Source: Cryptosporangium aurantiacum (lineage in GTDB: Bacteria > Actinomycetota > Actinomycetes > Mycobacteriales > Cryptosporangiaceae). Taken from it: a DNA stretch of 64,000 nucleotides. Every line of letters begins with the position of its first letter. Within the stretch, counting starts at the first letter, position 1. Of the stretch, positions 108 through 6,317 are shown piece by piece. Position numbers and translations under genes: made by a program. The stretch spans positions 1 to 64,000 of the forward strand of contig NZ_FRCS01000003.1 of the NCBI RefSeq assembly GCF_900143005.1, read 5' to 3'. The notes under the pieces were generated by a model. It did no database searches. It saw only the letters and a list, made by a program, of their open reading frames with translations, and was not told where the DNA came from.

Positions 108-289
108 CACCACGCCTGAACCCGCCGACCACCCGGAACGCCACCGCGCTCCGGGCCATCGGCATGTCCACGCTCAGATCAGGACCACAATGGTCATCCT
201 TGGCGAGACGACACGATCACCGAAGACCGGGCCAGAGCGACGGCGTACTCGGCGGCGGCGAGGCGTGCCTGTTCGCGCCCCTCCTCGCC

Positions 290-426
290 GCCCGCGGACA
301 CGAACAGGCCGGCCCGCCGGCGGACACGAACGAGCCGCCCGCCCGCGGACACGAACGAGCCGGCCCGCCCGCGGACACGAACGAGCCGCCCGCCCGCGGA
401 CACGAACGAGCCGGCCCGCCCGCGGA
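290..426. repeat. GC-rich minisatellite, about five 25-26 bp units
   Basis: Units beginning GCGGACACGAACGAGCC recur about five times with small differences (one versus two G before the CCCG run), giving a 51-bp higher-order period that is itself duplicated. The first unit has CAGGCC for CGAGCC and the last ends in GCGGACGCC. The repeat lies just beyond the point where a GntR-like reading frame falls apart, and replication slippage here may have helped break that gene. There is no dyad symmetry or unique spacer, so this is not a CRISPR array. Bases 108-289 before it hold nothing recognisable. Confidence 0.85.
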
Positions 427-439
427 CGCCAACGATCCG

Positions 440-1473: not shown

Positions 1474-1522
1474 CGATCAACTCCGATGAGTATCAAGAAG
1501 TCCACGGTGGATGGCACGGACG

Positions 1523-1601
1523 AGACCGCAGCCGGGTTCGAAACGGCGTCGACCGCTTTGCAGGGCGGAATCTGACGCTCTCTCCACTGAGCTACGAAGG
1601 C
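1523..1601 (-). pseudogene. Decayed tRNA at the end of the array (Ala-UGC-like)
   Basis: The 5' part, GCCTTCG-TA-GCTC with a normal D arm, and a T-loop TTCGAAC are recognisable. The anticodon stem cannot be folded canonically: about six extra bases precede a CCGC-CCTGCAAA-GCGG hairpin with an eight-base loop. The 3' acceptor strand (TGCGGTC) mismatches the 5' strand at two or more pairs, and T-stem pair 53-61 is broken. CTGCAAA suggests an original UGC anticodon. Probably non-functional. Confidence 0.6.
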
Positions 1602-1616
1602 GACCGAACAACAACG

Positions 1617-1700
1617 TGCGGGCGGAGGGACTCGAACCCCCTCAGCGCGAAGCAACCGGTTTACAGCCGGCCCCGACTCTCCGATCGTCGGCGCGCCCGC
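1617..1700 (-). tRNA. tRNA-Tyr (GUA)
   Basis: An 84-base class II tRNA. Acceptor GCGGGCG pairs with CGCCCGC and the discriminator is A. The anticodon stem GCCGG/CCGGT encloses loop CTGTAAA (GTA). A 13-base variable arm contains a TTCG tetraloop, as expected for bacterial tRNA-Tyr. Its 5' end is only two bases from the 3' end of tRNA-His, so processing must separate them. Confidence 0.9.
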
Positions 1701-1702
1701 GG

Positions 1703-1773
1703 GGTGACCGGCCGGAGTCGAACCGGCATGGCCAGGGTCACGACCTGGTGCTCTGCCATTGAGCTACGGCCAC
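1703..1773 (-). tRNA. tRNA-His (GUG), atypical
   Basis: Acceptor GTGGCCG pairs with CGGTCAC and the discriminator is C73, the histidine hallmark. The anticodon stem CCAGG/CCTGG encloses TCGTGAC, giving GTG. Two oddities are visible: position 33 is C instead of the nearly universal U, and the encoded base before G1 is T, so the G-1 identity element is not genome-encoded. The variable loop is four bases. It may be a weak or non-functional tRNA. Confidence 0.8.
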
Positions 1774-1796
1774 ACTCGCGGCCTTGATCAGGCCAG

Positions 1797-1869
1797 TGCC
1801 CGCGCCGGGCGTCGAACCCGGGGTCTCCGCCGTGTGACGGCGACGCTCTTCCTCCTGAGCTCCACGGAC
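1797..1869 (-). tRNA. tRNA-Val (CAC)
   Basis: Acceptor GTCCGTG pairs with CGCGGGC and the discriminator is A. D stem GCTC/GAGC. The anticodon loop GTCACAC gives CAC, reading GUG, a frequent codon in high-GC genomes. T stem CCGGG/CCCGG. All stems close. Confidence 0.9.
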
Positions 1870-1894
1870 GACATCACGGCGCTTCCGCCGCCTG

Positions 1895-1967
1895 CTCCCC
1901 CGGCTGGACTCGAACCAGCACCGTGACGATTAACAGTCGCCTGCCCTGCCGATTGGGCGACGAGGGA
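1895..1967 (-). tRNA. tRNA-Asn (GUU)
   Basis: Acceptor TCCCTCG pairs with CGGGGGA; U1-A72 and G73 are typical of tRNA-Asn. The anticodon loop CTGTTAA gives GTT. T stem GCTGG/CCAGC. All stems fold. Confidence 0.92.
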
Positions 1968-1968
1968 A

Positions 1969-1998
1969 TGCAACGCGCGCGGGACTCGAACCCGCTAC
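1969..1998 (-). pseudogene. Isolated tRNA T-arm fragment
   Basis: Between tRNA-Pro and tRNA-Asn the minus strand carries a T stem-loop, GCGGG-TTCGAGT-CCCGC, followed by an acceptor-like GCGCGTTGCA, with no D or anticodon arm. It looks like the 3' third of a deleted tRNA, evidence of past recombination between array members. Confidence 0.6.
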
Positions 1999-2005
1999 GC
2001 CGTGG

Positions 2006-2078
2006 TCGGATCGGCCGGGCTCGAACCGGCGGCCTTCGCATCCCGAATGCGACGCGCTCCCTACTGCGCCACGATCCG
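2006..2078 (-). tRNA. tRNA-Pro (CGG)
   Basis: Acceptor CGGATCG pairs with CGATCCG, including the C1-G72 pair expected for bacterial tRNA-Pro. D stem GCGC/GCGC. The anticodon loop TTCGGGA gives CGG. The discriminator A is followed by a genome-encoded CCA, which I do not see in the other members of the array. Confidence 0.92.
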
Positions 2079-2109
2079 TCGAACGTGCTGCGCCCCGGTG
2101 GGGCGGGCG

Positions 2110-2183
2110 TGCCGCCAGAAGGAATTGAACCTTCGACCTCCGAGGTATCAGCTCGGCGCTCTCACCAACTGAGCTATAGCGAC
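2110..2183 (-). tRNA. tRNA-Ile (GAU)
   Basis: Acceptor GTCGCTA pairs with TGGCGGC using G-U pairs; discriminator A. The anticodon stem CCGAG/CTCGG encloses CTGATAC (GAT). T stem GAAGG/CCTTC. Well formed. Confidence 0.9.
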
Positions 2184-2191
2184 GTATCGAG

Positions 2192-2265
2192 CGCCCCGCA
2201 CCGGGTTCGAACCGGCGACCTCCCGCGTGACAGACGGGCGCTCTGACCTGCTGAGCTAACGGAGC
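2192..2265 (-). tRNA. tRNA-Asp (GUC)
   Basis: Acceptor GCTCCGT pairs with GCGGGGC; G73 is the aspartate discriminator. The anticodon stem CCCGT/GCGGG encloses CTGTCAC (GTC). T stem GCCGG/CCGGT. Confidence 0.92.
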
Positions 2266-2277
2266 AGCGGTACTGCG

Positions 2278-2350
2278 TGGACCCAGCCGGACTCGAACCG
2301 GCCACCTTCCGCTTGCAAGGCGGACGCTCTCCCAGATGAGCTATGAGCCC
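2278..2350 (-). tRNA. tRNA-Ala (UGC)
   Basis: Acceptor GGGCTCA pairs with TGGGTCC through two G-U pairs. Pair 3-70 is G-U, the alanine identity determinant, and the discriminator is A. The anticodon stem TCCGC/GCGGA encloses CTTGCAA (TGC). Confidence 0.92.
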
Positions 2351-2379
2351 GTCATCCCCGTGCGTCGGGGAGTCGTGCG

Positions 2380-2452
2380 TACCCGGAGCGCGAGTCGAAC
2401 GCGCACTGTCGCGGTTCTGAGCCGCGTGCCTCTGCCTTTGGGCTACCCGGGC
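2380..2452 (-). tRNA. tRNA-Leu (CAG) with short, class I variable loop
   Basis: Acceptor GCCCGGG pairs with TCCGGGT, with G-U at both ends. The anticodon stem CGCGG/CCGCG encloses CTCAGAA (CAG, reading CUG). The variable region is just ACAGT, five bases, whereas bacterial tRNA-Leu normally has a long variable arm. It shares its D arm (AGCCCAAnGGCAGAGGCA) and variable loop pattern with the adjacent Leu-GAG gene, so the pair arose by duplication. Confidence 0.82.
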
Positions 2453-2469
2453 GTGGGTTTGGTGCTGCG

Positions 2470-2543
2470 TGCCCTCGACGCGATTCGAACGCGCACTGGC
2501 GACGTCCTCAACGTCGTGCCTCTGCCTGTTGGGCTACGAGGGC
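2470..2543 (-). tRNA. tRNA-Leu (GAG) with short, class I variable loop
   Basis: Acceptor GCCCTCG pairs perfectly with CGAGGGC and the discriminator is A. The anticodon stem CGACG/CGTCG encloses TTGAGGA (GAG, reading CUC). The variable loop is CCAGT, so it lacks the long arm that marks canonical bacterial tRNA-Leu. It is a sister of the CAG gene downstream. Which synthetase charges it cannot be told from sequence. Confidence 0.82.
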
Positions 2544-2579
2544 ATGTGCTGCGAGCGGCTGGTTGTGCACTCGACTGCG

Positions 2580-2653
2580 TCGCCCGTCCGGGGGCCGAAC
2601 CCGGTCCTCTGGCTTGAGAGGCCAGCGGTCTACCTTCCTCAACCTCACGGGCG
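2580..2653 (-). tRNA. tRNA-Glu (CUC)
   Basis: Acceptor CGCCCGT pairs with ACGGGCG; discriminator A. D stem GGTT/GACC. The anticodon stem CTGGC/GCCAG encloses CTCTCAA (CTC, reading GAG). The first base pair is C1-G72 rather than the usual G1-C72, so it is somewhat divergent from housekeeping tRNA-Glu. Confidence 0.85.
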
Positions 2654-2665
2654 TTCGTACCTGCG

Positions 2666-2739
2666 TGCCTTCCGTCGGGGTCGAACCGACATCCTCGCGG
2701 GCTTCAACCGCGCGCTCTACCAACCTGAGCTTGGAAGGC
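2666..2739 (-). tRNA. tRNA-Phe (GAA)
   Basis: Acceptor GCCTTCC pairs with GGAAGGC; discriminator A. The anticodon stem CGCGG/CCGCG encloses TTGAAGC (GAA). T stem GTCGG/CCGAC. Position 37 is G. Confidence 0.9.
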
Positions 2740-2747
2740 AAGGAACG

Positions 2748-2821
2748 TGTCCCCGGACGGAATCGAACCGCCGACTCCCAGGTTCGTAGCCTGGTGCTCT
2801 GATCCGCTGAGCTACGGGGAC
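2748..2821 (-). tRNA. tRNA-Arg (ACG), first gene of the array
   Basis: Acceptor GTCCCCG pairs with CGGGGAC; discriminator A. The anticodon stem CCAGG/CCTGG encloses CTACGAA, giving ACG, which in bacteria is edited to ICG by TadA. T stem GGCGG/CCGTC with a G-U pair. It lies nearest the upstream leader motif, so it is probably the first tRNA of the transcript. Confidence 0.92.
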
Positions 2822-2862
2822 AGGTGCGCCGGCGCGCGCCCCGCCCGAGAGCGGGAACGCCC

Positions 2863-2898
2863 GGCACCTCTGTGTGCCATCCACTGTGGAGTTCTCAA
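2863..2898 (-). promoter_or_regulatory. rRNA-leader-like box ahead of the tRNA array
   Basis: On the minus strand, TTGAGAACTCCACAGTG is followed by a small GGCAC/GTGCC hairpin, about 40 bases before tRNA-Arg. It closely resembles the TTTGAGAACTCAACAG-type sequence of actinobacterial rRNA leaders, which is linked to antitermination/processing of stable RNA. The resemblance is by eye. Confidence 0.5.
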
Positions 2899-2926: not shown

Positions 2927-2953
2927 AAGCTACGCCCATAAGAATTGAAACAA
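2927..2953 (-). promoter_or_regulatory. Candidate promoter of the tRNA array
   Basis: In a locally A/T-rich patch the minus strand has TTGTTT, a 15-base spacer and TAGCTT (TAnnnT). This lies about 30 bases upstream of the rRNA-leader-like box. The spacer is short, so this is tentative. Confidence 0.3.
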
Positions 2954-3529
2954 TTTTGCGGCAGCACGAAGAAACAATTGTCGGAAACAAAAACCGCCCG
3001 TTCCCGGCGGGGAGGGGCGGCGTGAGCGCAACGCTGATTGCGTTACCTCAGCCACCGTTCCCGGCGGGGTTCCTGCTCGTCATCGCCCAGGTAGGAGGGG
3101 CGCCCGGCGCACAGGGCACCGCGGCTGAGCAGCATAAATCGCTGCTCCGCAATGCTGGTGTGCCGCAACATTCTGGTCTCCTGACTGGATCAGTGGTGAT
3201 CGGTGCTGTCGTAGACGATAGAGGGCGACCGCTGAGGCGCCAACTCAATTATGCGCAGCGATTACGCACTAATCAATAGCGCGCGACTTGGTCTTCGCTG
3301 CGCCCCAGGAAACAGGTCAAGCCGGACGTCACGAGCAGCAGCGCGATGCCCGCCGCCAAGAGGACGTCGACCCGTCGAGCGGGGACGGCACCGGCTGCGG
3401 CTCCGGTGGGACGTTCGGTGGGCCGCCGGTGACATAGGCAACTGCGGCCCGAGAGCGTTGCCCACTGTGGAGAGACACGGCCATGCTCATCGAGGTAAGG
3501 ACGGTCCGACCCCGCAGAGGAGCCGAGTG
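2954..3529. other. Intergenic stretch between tRNA array and P450 gene
   Basis: No convincing gene. CCGTTCCCGGCGGGG occurs twice (about 2998 and 3055). There is an inverted repeat GAGCAGC-7-GCTGCTC at 3127-3147. The P450 frame stays open upstream to 3251, but without coding character before 3530. Confidence 0.5.
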
Positions 3530-4759: not shown

Positions 4760-6317
4760 CCCCGGTGCCGGGCAAAGCCAGGACGCCGTCCACGCGCCGC
4801 GGGATGCCCTCGTAACCGTCCCGCAGCTCCGCCGGCAGCACGTGTTCCGGCGCGTTCTGCCAGGTCAGCGGCCGGAGGAAGCGCCGGATCGCGGTCGGGC
4901 CCACGGAGGTGTGCACGGTATTGGTGGAGGGCCACGGCCCGCCGTGGGTCTGTGCCCAGGAGACCAGCACGCCGGTCGGGTACGCGTCGAACAGCAGGCG
5001 GCCCGCCCGGGGCTGCAGCACGGCCAGCAGCGGGCCCAGGTCGTCGCCGTCCGCGGAGTGGACGGTTGCCGTCAGCGACCCGGGCAGCGACGCCAGCACG
5101 TCCAGCAGCTCCGCCGAGGACGAGTACCGCACGATCAGCGCGAGCGGCCCGAAGCACTCCTCGGCCAGCGCCGGGGTGAACCCGGCGGCATCCACGGTCA
5201 ACAGCGCCGGCACGGCCGCGCCGCCCGCGCCCCCCGCGCCCGAAAGCCCCGCGGCCGCGCCCCCCGCGCCCGAAAGCCCCGCGGCCGCGCCCCCCGCGCC
5301 CGAAAGCCCCGCGTCCGAGAACCCCGCGTCCGAGAACCCCGCGTCCGAGAGCCCCTCGCCCCCGACCCGCGGCCCGGCGAGAGCAACCCCGGGCTCCGCA
5401 CGCAGCGACGCGCCGATGGCGGCGTACCCCTCCGAGACCCGCTCGTTGAGCAGCCGGCCCGCCGGTGCCGCGGCGACCAGCGACGCCGCCCGCGCGACCA
5501 GCTCGTCACCCGAAGCGTCCGCGGGCACGAACACCAGACCTGGCTTCGTGCACAGCTGGCCCAGCGAACCGGTGATCGACGCGACGAGCCCGTCCGCGAT
5601 GGACGCTGCCCGCTCAGCCGCCGCCCCCGGCGTCACCACCAGCGGGTTCAGGCTCGCGAGCTCGCCGTAGAACGGGATCGGCGAGGGCCGCGTCTCGATC
5701 AGTGCCCGCAGCGCCTGCCCTCCCGCCAGCGATCCGGTGAACCCGACGGCGGTGATCAGCGGGTCGGTGACCAGCTCCGCGCCGGCCTCCCGCCCGTACA
5801 CGATCCCGACGGTCCCGGACGGTGCTCCCACCCGCGAGGCTGCCGCCTCCAACGCCGAAAACGCCAATGCGGACGTCGAGGGATGCGACTCGTGGGCCTT
5901 CACCACCACCGGGCACCCGGCCGCCAGCGCCGACGCCGTGTCGCCACCGGGCACCGAGAACGCCAGCGGGAAGTTCGACGCCCCGAACACCGCGACCGGG
6001 CCGACCGGCACCAGCATCCGGCGCAGGTCGGGCCCCGGCCCCATCGGGGTGTCCCCGGCGTGGTCGATCGTGGCCTCCAGATAGGAGCCCTCGTCGAGGA
6101 CGTCGGCGAAGACCCGCAGCTGATAGGCGGTGCGGGTGACCTCACCACCGAGCCGGGCGTCCCCCAGGAACGTCTCGCGCGCGGCGGTGGCGACGAGCGC
6201 CTCGCGGCGCGCCTCGATCTCCTCAGCGGCGGCCCGCAGCAGCCGGGCACGCCCGGCGCGCCCGAGAGCAGCAAGGCCAGGAACGGCGTCGGCGGCAGCA
6301 GCGGTAACACGGTTCAC
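4719..6317 (-). CDS. Alpha-ketoglutarate-semialdehyde (2,5-dioxovalerate) dehydrogenase-like ALDH
   Basis: A 532-residue aldehyde dehydrogenase expected to oxidise 2,5-dioxopentanoate to 2-oxoglutarate with NAD(P), the last step of non-phosphorylative pentose or sugar-acid routes. The catalytic Cys256 sits in SLGQLCTKPGLVF and the general-base Glu219 in FYGELASLNP, a pattern typical of the KGSADH subfamily. GTG start at 6317 overlaps the LacI stop by GTGA, so it is the last gene of the operon. Residues about 319-368 are a Gly/Ala/Ser repeat encoded by three 30-bp and three 15-bp tandem units, an in-frame insertion absent from ordinary ALDHs. The start of the catalytic core is intact. Subfamily assignment is by motif and context. 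Confidence 0.85.
   Translation of the reverse strand: MNRVTAAAADAVPGLAALGRAGRARLLRAAAEEIEARREALVATAARETFLGDARLGGEVTRTAYQLRVFADVLDEGSYLEATIDHAGDTPMGPGPDLRRMLVPVGPVAVFGASNFPLAFSVPGGDTASALAAGCPVVVKAHESHPSTSALAFSALEAAASRVGAPSGTVGIVYGREAGAELVTDPLITAVGFTGSLAGGQALRALIETRPSPIPFYGELASLNPLVVTPGAAAERAASIADGLVASITGSLGQLCTKPGLVFVPADASGDELVARAASLVAAAPAGRLLNERVSEGYAAIGASLRAEPGVALAGPRVGGEGLSDAGFSDAGFSDAGLSGAGGAAAGLSGAGGAAAGLSGAGGAGGAAVPALLTVDAAGFTPALAEECFGPLALIVRYSSSAELLDVLASLPGSLTATVHSADGDDLGPLLAVLQPRAGRLLFDAYPTGVLVSWAQTHGGPWPSTNTVHTSVGPTAIRRFLRPLTWQNAPEHVLPAELRDGYEGIPRRVDGVLALPGTGVTSALPGPADRGR
5221..5355. repeat. In-frame tandem repeats inside the aldehyde dehydrogenase gene
   Basis: Three 30-bp units (5221-5250, 5251-5280, 5281-5310) encode GLSGAGGAAA-type decapeptides on the minus strand. 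Three 15-bp units (5311-5355) encode GFSDA pentapeptides. Both unit lengths are multiples of three, so copy-number change would not break the frame. Confidence 0.9.

Follow-up and report, generated by a model that had tools for sequence, protein, structure and literature searches.

Supplementary tRNA arrays are already known. In mycobacteria, tRNA array units on plasmids, phages and chromosomes form dense, one-strand sets of divergent supplementary tRNAs that serve up to 20 amino acids and contain an HNH gene, as described in two reports (PMC5966550; PMC12803027). The role of such arrays is called unknown in the excerpted text of the Mycobacterium avium report (PMC12803027), and phage tRNAs are argued to resist anticodon nucleases (PMC10264068). 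Here, a tRNA array (array A) was analyzed in a 64,000-nucleotide stretch of the Cryptosporangium aurantiacum genome (contig NZ_FRCS01000003.1, positions 1 to 64,000; the window). Array A is a supplementary tRNA set. The locus is probably a supplementary tRNA operon under a translation-coupled (ribosome-mediated) attenuator that senses a shortage of many tRNAs.

The published definition of a tRNA array unit, as excerpted, sets at least 20 tRNAs and at least 2 tRNAs per kb (PMC5966550). Array A contains 13 tRNAs in 1.2 kb and exceeds the density, but neither array A nor the second array of the genome (array B, 16 or 17 tRNAs) reaches the number, which is reached by relatives with 30–39 tRNAs. 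An embedded HNH endonuclease gene, as in M. avium (PMC12803027), was not found in array A, where no gap exceeds 35 nt, and is present in a related array of the congener G002.

The control region upstream of array A resembles three described systems. The attenuators of amino-acid operons and whiB7 likewise use a short leader open reading frame (ORF), a terminator and an antiterminator at the last codons, with stalling meant to give readthrough (ilvB1 leader; excerpts of PMC13236596). These attenuators sense one or a few amino acids, whereas the array leaders carry 12–20 amino acids and match the tRNAs of their own operon, whose product is tRNA rather than enzymes. The arrangement that defines an attenuator, a short ORF with a ribosome-binding site that ends just before an intrinsic terminator, is present at array A. 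The trn operon of Anabaena, similar by description, comprises 26 supplementary tRNAs that are normally silent and induced by translational stress, and its control is by the repressor TrcR at the promoter rather than by a leader peptide (PMC10272220). In rRNA operons, boxA antitermination is combined with a leader-trailer helix of pre-23S rRNA (excerpts of PMC10250234). The same boxA core and closing helix are observed here, but a string of tRNAs, not rRNA, lies between the helix arms. Among the matches listed in open-licence papers, no report of leader or boxA/stalk control of tRNA arrays was found. The tRNA-array papers among the matches listed lacked the terms 'leader peptide' and 'transcription attenuation' in their open-licence full texts, and tRNA array combined with RNase III retrieved, among the full-text matches listed, only genome-editing papers. 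None of the matches listed on antitermination and boxA contained the term 'tRNA array'.

The leader ORF and its correspondence to the array

The first-pass annotation, which treated the array as a loose set of tRNAs, missed its control region, namely, a promoter-like site, a leader ORF, an intrinsic terminator, a tRNA-Trp remnant and boxA (Table 1). The array instead has the layout of an operon with its own control region. This layout was compared among 67 boxA-headed arrays, of which one (L200, 130 nt of leader) was left out of the leader counts. The terminator is present in all 66 arrays with at least 300 nt upstream (-16 to -33 kcal/mol), and 64 of them contain a leader ORF of 36–53 codons with its stop codon 9–25 nt before the hairpin; the other two, L250 and L281, were left out of the peptide counts. 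The spacing of the promoter-like hexamers is identical in all five arrays of the genus, and a looser hexamer pair is found in 58 of the 64 leaders, compared with a null rate of 0.7%. Where tRNA-Trp was called (38 arrays), it starts 7–93 nt past the start of the T-run, which leaves little room for a promoter in the tightest cases. A strict leader rule, with ORF limits set on the ranges seen in the same data and counted on the 64 leaders already with an ORF, was passed by 53 (0.1 expected from Markov sequences). None of the 32 housekeeping tRNAs with 520 nt upstream (32 of 49) passed the strict rule; 14 of them have a terminator-like hairpin, and one (tRNA-Ile) passed a looser rule.

The leader peptides are rich in different amino acids. 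The 64 leaders contain on average 16.83 different amino acids in ~42 residues, compared with 15.21 in equal windows of the window genes and 15.62 in random peptides of their own composition (0 of 2000 simulations each). The 36 leaders below 50% identity gave 16.92 versus 15.25, and means of 13.34 and 14.57 were obtained for alternative frames and shuffled DNA, respectively. All 20 amino acids are found in four of the 64 leaders (0.035 expected).

The amino acids that are missing from a leader are largely those that its array does not serve. This comparison was framed once all arrays were in hand; it left out 13 of the 64 arrays with an end possibly outside the fetched stretch, and Met was excluded because every ORF starts with Met. 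In the 51 arrays, 129 of the 150 leader-missing amino acids are also missing as array isotypes, compared with 86.8±4.9 after permutation (0/5000) and 107.6±4.0 after permutation within genera (0/5000), with the limit that shared ancestry sets on permutation tests. The leader contains the amino acid in 533 of the 554 cells with an array tRNA and in 286 of the 415 cells without one. The match was also observed in the 20 leaders below 40% identity (52/58 versus 34.1±3.2) and in the 38 arrays that were added once the leader had been noticed (110/124 versus 81.1±4.1). Anticodons of the leader's own array read 56.9% of the leader codons, and those of permuted arrays read 50.2±0.8%. The window leader lacks Lys, Asn and Val, and array A lacks Lys. 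Statistically over the arrays, the regulatory codons of the leader appear to fit the operon product, with Asn and Val in array A and a Nonomuraea plasmid as exceptions. The leader was also considered as a functional protein, which was rejected given no Pfam match (two tried) and no codon-position bias.

Nine plasmid arrays with a Trp-boxA head (five Arthrobacter-group, three Curtobacterium and one Nonomuraea) provided a fresh test. Their leaders were found by a looser ribosome-site rule, and other ORFs were also listed in three of the nine regions. The eight Arthrobacter-group and Curtobacterium (Micrococcales) leaders consist of 43–52 residues. The full set of 20 amino acids is present in seven of them and 19 (no Cys) in the eighth, compared with 0.11% of the 50-residue windows of the window genes holding 20, although related plasmids are not independent. 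Random substitution between one leader and its relative would preserve all 20 at a probability of 0.04–0.06 per pair. As predicted beforehand, the array behind the Cys-less leader (L302) lacks tRNA-Cys and nothing else. In all eight plasmids, the leader holds every amino acid served by the array. The prediction that a 20-amino-acid leader precedes a 20-isotype array was true in four of seven cases; the three other arrays (L305, L306 and L308) lack one or two isotypes in the fetched stretch. The leader peptide of Curtobacterium D40 (L296 2500–2631) is already annotated as the hypothetical protein WP_258377915.1.

These plasmid leaders bear on another explanation, a whiB7-like switch for general translation stress that responds to any ribosome stalling, such as that by antibiotics, with the amino-acid variety being incidental. 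Mycobacterial whiB7 and ilvB1 leaders use stalling on an upstream ORF and a choice between terminator and antiterminator (excerpts of PMC13236596), and the Anabaena trn operon is antibiotic-induced according to the excerpts of PMC10272220. Such a switch gives no reason for the leader/isotype match or for plasmid leaders with 20 amino acids, and we regard it as quite improbable.

For the attenuator that senses many tRNAs, folding predicts a switch. The duplex between the last leader codons and the 5' arm of the terminator is stronger than that of shuffled segments (mean z -1.80; 45 of 64 below -1), in contrast to the 5' part of the same leader ORFs (mean z +0.52; 3 of 64 below -1). The computed terminator probability is 0.04 for array A and 0.14 for array B with a ribosome stalled upstream and 0.97 and 0.98, respectively, with a ribosome at the stop codon. 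In this model, the antiterminator would exclude the terminator, and a ribosome positioned at the stop codon would mask it.

A twin motif, CAATTGTTT ... AAATTGTTTC, is located between the terminator and tRNA-Trp in array A (window 2928–2995) and array B (L039 11040–11140) and is a possible operator. It is degenerate in other arrays of the genus and absent from Micromonosporaceae arrays, and a promoter in the motif was thus rejected as a general mechanism.

The boxA head and the closing helix

The boxA core GAGAACTNNACAGTG occurs at exactly six places in the 9.58-Mb genome, and its reversed pattern occurs at none. The six places are before array A, before array B, before 23S rRNA and at three contig ends, which we take to be of the 16S-leader type. 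In the rRNA operon, the boxA arm pairs with a sequence behind 23S rRNA. An inverted copy of the boxA arm is also found behind the last tRNA of both array A and array B, and the tRNAs would therefore occupy the position of a 23S rRNA.

Nineteen loci were taken up first, and 17 of them held boxA-headed arrays. No boxA-headed array was found by rule in G004, where boxA is followed by one tRNA, or in Asanoa contig 20. The trailer arm is present in 15 of the 17 arrays, scores above all 200 shuffles in 12 and begins 2–6 nt after the last tRNA in eight. Over the 15 arm pairs, the 17-pair stalk helix is 94.9% paired. One covarying pair occurs as C-G, G-C, A-U and U-G and another as U-A, C-G and U-G, and 11 stalk cells are changed on both sides, compared with 3.3 in shuffles (0/500). 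The leader-trailer helix appears to enclose the array in the manner of the pre-23S rRNA stalk, with covariation that is partly beyond the controls.

The motif is closely associated with tRNA arrays. TTGAGAACTNNACAGTGGATGGCA has 10 exact matches in a one-genome-per-species collection, which may have omitted records near the window's own genome, and each of them stands at the head of a tRNA array (in Asanoa, Phytohabitans, Catellatospora, Micromonospora, Amorphoplanes and two Micromonosporaceae metagenome-assembled genomes). In 354 Micromonosporaceae genomes, 62 places with at most one mismatch were found in 56 genomes of 17 of the 44 genera. Two or more tRNAs lie within 1.6 kb of each of the 62, and the same holds for 67 of 67 when the five arrays of the window's genus are added. 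In 394 genomes of the class, boxA without the GGATGGCA tail was found at six places in five genomes beyond the window, none with tRNAs within the loci; these places are presumably of the rRNA-leader type.

Beyond these chromosomes, four IMG/VR contigs contain the motif; two head arrays and two do not. The array contigs L313 and L314 (106 and 112 kb) contain 32 and at least 10 tRNAs, respectively. L314 has a leader with 19 amino acids and a terminator, and L313 has no terminator by rule. The boxA core precedes the arrays of the mycobacterial plasmids pJCM12272, pCBMA213_1 and pTY66_01 and is exact at the array head in three Mycolicibacterium and two Curtobacterium plasmids. In a further Curtobacterium plasmid, the boxA has GCG in place of the terminal GTG. 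Six plasmids, five of the Arthrobacter group and one from Nonomuraea, contain a variant boxA immediately after tRNA-Trp. The stalk in the M. alvei and CBMA213 plasmid arrays is not above shuffles, and a search of two Mycolicibacterium arrays revealed no leader ORF, attenuator or stalk. The Tsukamurella array has no boxA, and phages Tonenili and Patelgo have no convincing boxA.

tRNA content and genomic setting

ARAGORN confirmed the 13 head-to-tail tRNAs of 12 isotypes that the first-pass annotation had placed on one strand. They span positions 1616–2821 of the minus strand and are transcribed in the order Arg, Phe, Glu, Leu, Leu, Ala, Asp, Ile, Pro, Asn, Val, His and Tyr. Twelve of the 13 score above the gathering score of the Rfam tRNA model, and the long-arm Tyr is not listed. 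The intergenic gaps measure 0–35 bases rather than the 2–38 bases given earlier, and the left end of the earlier span, which had been counted as intact array, is a remnant with Arg-like and Cys-like parts. The identities of the three tRNA remnants were read by eye against array B and the congener G001. Most tRNAs of array A lack an encoded CCA, as had been claimed (present in 1 of 13), but this is not peculiar to the array: CCA is encoded in 4 of 16 tRNAs in array B and 15 of 49 in the remaining genome. Missing CCA was consequently rejected as a special array trait. The two Leu tRNAs of array A consist of 74 and 75 nt, whereas the other Leu tRNAs of the genome have a long variable arm. Among 30 Leu tRNAs from 17 arrays, 27 are 69–77 nt long and three are 83–84 nt long.

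Table 1. Features of the array A locus (positions in the window)
Feature	Position	Strand	Basis
Promoter-like site TTGGCG, 17 bp, TATCGT	3215..3243	-	Consensus match
Shine-Dalgarno AGGAG of leader ORF	3178..3182	-	Sequence
Leader ORF, 42 codons + stop, MLRHTSIAEQRFMLLSRGALCAGRPSYLGDDEQEPRRERWLR	3043..3171	-	Counterpart in 64/66 arrays
Predicted antiterminator segment GGGAACGGTGGC, last leader codons, complementary to terminator 5' arm	3051..3062	-	Prediction
Intrinsic terminator, hairpin 2992-3021 (-19.3 kcal/mol) + T-rich tail	2984..3021	-	Folding
Remnant, head of tRNA-Trp (intact at same place in array B)	2928..2940	-	Comparison with array B and congener G001
boxA + 5' arm of stalk, TTGAGAACTCCACAGTGGATGGCAC	2874..2898	-	Comparison with rRNA operons and other arrays
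tRNA-Arg (acg)	2747..2821	-	ARAGORN, Rfam
tRNA-Phe (gaa)	2665..2739	-	ARAGORN, Rfam
tRNA-Glu (ctc)	2579..2653	-	ARAGORN, Rfam
tRNA-Leu (gag), without long variable arm	2469..2543	-	ARAGORN, Rfam
tRNA-Leu (cag), without long variable arm	2379..2452	-	ARAGORN, Rfam
tRNA-Ala (tgc)	2277..2350	-	ARAGORN, Rfam
tRNA-Asp (gtc)	2191..2265	-	ARAGORN, Rfam
tRNA-Ile (gat)	2109..2183	-	ARAGORN, Rfam
tRNA-Pro (cgg), sole array A tRNA with encoded CCA	2003..2078	-	ARAGORN, Rfam
Remnant, 3' half of tRNA-Glu (ttc)	1970..1995	-	Comparison with array B and congener G001
tRNA-Asn (gtt)	1894..1967	-	ARAGORN, Rfam
tRNA-Val (cac)	1796..1869	-	ARAGORN, Rfam
tRNA-His (gtg)	1701..1773	-	ARAGORN, Rfam
tRNA-Tyr (gta)	1616..1700	-	ARAGORN; below Rfam gathering score
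Remnant, fused Arg-like 5' half + Cys-like 3' half	1532..1600	-	Comparison with array B and congener G001
3' arm of stalk, inverted copy of boxA arm	1497..1517	-	19/21 match

The genome contains 76 tRNAs by Rfam. Outside arrays A and B, ARAGORN called 49 tRNAs for all 20 amino acids, plus SeC. Array B (C2:493448–495104) contains 16 ARAGORN tRNAs and one more by Rfam (Asn by reading). Arrays A and B, with 12 and 15 isotypes, respectively, together cover 20 amino acids, as do the two arrays of the congener G002 (17 and 6 isotypes). The congener G001 has a single broken-up array with 14 isotypes, so that completeness across arrays is not universal; no further array tRNAs completing these 14 amino acids were among the matches listed. 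No array is present in the congener G003, whose Rfam tRNAs number 40, compared with 67, 72 and 76 in the other genomes of the genus. The possibility that the array is the housekeeping set is hardly credible and was rejected, given the 49 other tRNAs for 20 amino acids and the array-less G003. The earlier description of a supplementary set is supported, since the genome has a full separate set, contrary to the absence of other isoacceptor copies that had been named as opposing evidence. The suggestion that the set evolves apart from the housekeeping tRNAs also agrees with the data: all 29 ARAGORN-called tRNAs of arrays A and B are nearer to some array tRNA from a different genome than to any housekeeping tRNA of their own, a comparison favoured by the larger number of array candidates. 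With arrays outside the genus only, 28 of 29 are nearer (not Ile), with a tiny margin for Lys-CTT. A divergent lone tRNA-Val (tac; G000:C28:5908–5983, L052; 45.1 bits) is located outside both arrays and is perhaps a stray array tRNA.

The losses in array A raise the possibility of a decaying relic without function, with only larger relatives at work. The three tRNA remnants, the limitation to 12 isotypes and a leader without Asn and Val are in line with this possibility, but 13 tRNAs are intact, the leader, terminator, boxA and stalk are all intact, and arrays A and B jointly cover 20 amino acids. A relic is accordingly judged distinctly unlikely.

The arrays occupy changing genomic locations. 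At E 1e-12, the five arrays of the genus have no flanking protein in common beyond the cassette itself, when compared over ~8 kb or more on most sides and only 1.5 kb left of array A (contig start). The genes on both sides of array B are close together without a tRNA in G001, G002 and G003, and the right-flank genes of array A sit elsewhere in congeners without a tRNA nearby. The same array at the same place in close relatives, which the first-pass annotation had raised as a counterargument, was therefore not observed for the array B locus and the right flank of array A. Mobility, which it suggested, is a possible reading of these varying locations and of the presence of related arrays in plasmids and two viral contigs.

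Several related arrays contain protein-coding ORFs. The G001 array (L110 6298–10444) is split by three insertions that hold a ClpX-type zinc-finger ORF, a flavin reductase and a 435-residue ORF without a Pfam match. An HNH endonuclease ORF lies between Gly and Gln in the G002 array (L111 8876–9391), and similar ORFs occupy the same gap in seven other arrays. In the Phytohabitans maris array, an ORF between Asp and Ser (L139 5697–6563) matches RtcB RNA ligase over positions 1–249 of 426 (E 5e-61) and looks incomplete. Annotated ATP-dependent RNA ligases are located inside Curtobacterium plasmid arrays (L304 9679–10740 and L306 2667–3728) and might repair cut tRNAs. Short GC-rich tandem repeats are found at window positions 280–430 and 5220–5350, the second within a long minus-strand ORF.

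These features could describe an ordinary mobile supplementary array for anti-defence, in which the leader would be a small gene of no relation to the array, ending at a terminator of its own, and the array would be transcribed from a promoter behind it. The array is supplementary and divergent and its location varies, related arrays contain HNH genes, a partial RtcB-like ORF and RNA ligases, and anti-defence roles are proposed in the excerpts of PMC12803027 and PMC10264068. However, the leader/isotype match and the position of the ORF stop just before the terminator in 64 of 66 arrays would be left unexplained, and little promoter space exists where tRNA-Trp begins 7–25 nt past the T-run. An anti-defence purpose itself is compatible with an attenuator. 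We consider the explanation without an attenuator unlikely.

The proposed attenuator and its meaning

In the proposed translation-coupled attenuator, RNA polymerase would start upstream of the leader ORF. A ribosome that reaches the stop codon would cover the last codons, allowing the terminator to form and transcription to end before the array. If scarce charged tRNA stalls the ribosome early, the last codons would instead base-pair with the terminator 5' arm, and the polymerase would read on. Starvation, a tRNA-cleaving toxin or defence nuclease, or perhaps an antibiotic could cause the stall. The boxA would load the Nus factors of rRNA transcription. The long precursor would be excised at the pre-23S-like stalk to give a back-up set of divergent tRNAs. 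The anatomy, its conservation in related arrays and the leader/isotype match, on which this proposal draws, are established at the level of sequence.

In addition to the shared ancestry of the arrays, a number of observations weigh against this attenuator. No leader ORF was found by rule in two of the 66 arrays (L250 and L281). Array A contains Asn and Val tRNAs whose amino acids are missing from its leader, and array A has lost tRNAs and so may be decaying. The Nonomuraea plasmid has a 31-residue leader without E, N, T, V and Y ahead of a 20-isotype array and so contradicts the match. A canonical terminator before tRNA-Trp is missing from two of the three Curtobacterium leaders, and in two Mycolicibacterium plasmid arrays boxA is present, but 800 nt of sequence contained no leader of this type. 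The mean terminator probability over the 64 leaders changes moderately, from 0.68 stalled to 0.96 at the stop codon. Shuffled GC-rich segments also sequester 0.57 of the terminator arm, compared with 0.78 for the real segments, and the predicted switch is hence clear in array A and moderate in general. In 42 close leader pairs, the differences are even over the codon positions (319, 297 and 349), which indicates that the leader peptide is not conserved as a protein. For the stalk, three doubly changed pairs were found, not beyond shuffles (145/500), and swapping arms reduces the pairing merely from 17.67 to 16.99.

It is reasonably likely that the leader serves as a general tRNA gauge. It would present a codon for each tRNA that the operon can replace, and would be selected to do so, such that loss of any of them releases the whole back-up set, which would be made and excised in the manner of 23S rRNA. 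Leader and array would co-evolve, with an amino acid disappearing from the one as its tRNA is lost from the other, both in the chromosomal arrays of Micromonosporaceae and the window's family and in the plasmid arrays of relatives of Arthrobacter and Curtobacterium. The HNH genes, the partial RtcB-like ORF and the RNA ligases in related arrays make a role against tRNA-cleaving toxins or phage defence plausible. The boxA and the stalk suggest how an RNA with many tRNAs is made and cut out in one piece. If the proposal is correct, the attenuator would sense nearly all amino acids rather than one or a few, and the leader/isotype mirror would allow such operons to be recognized from sequence. The correspondence between leader and array would also indicate when the array is on, namely, once any of the tRNAs concerned becomes scarce.

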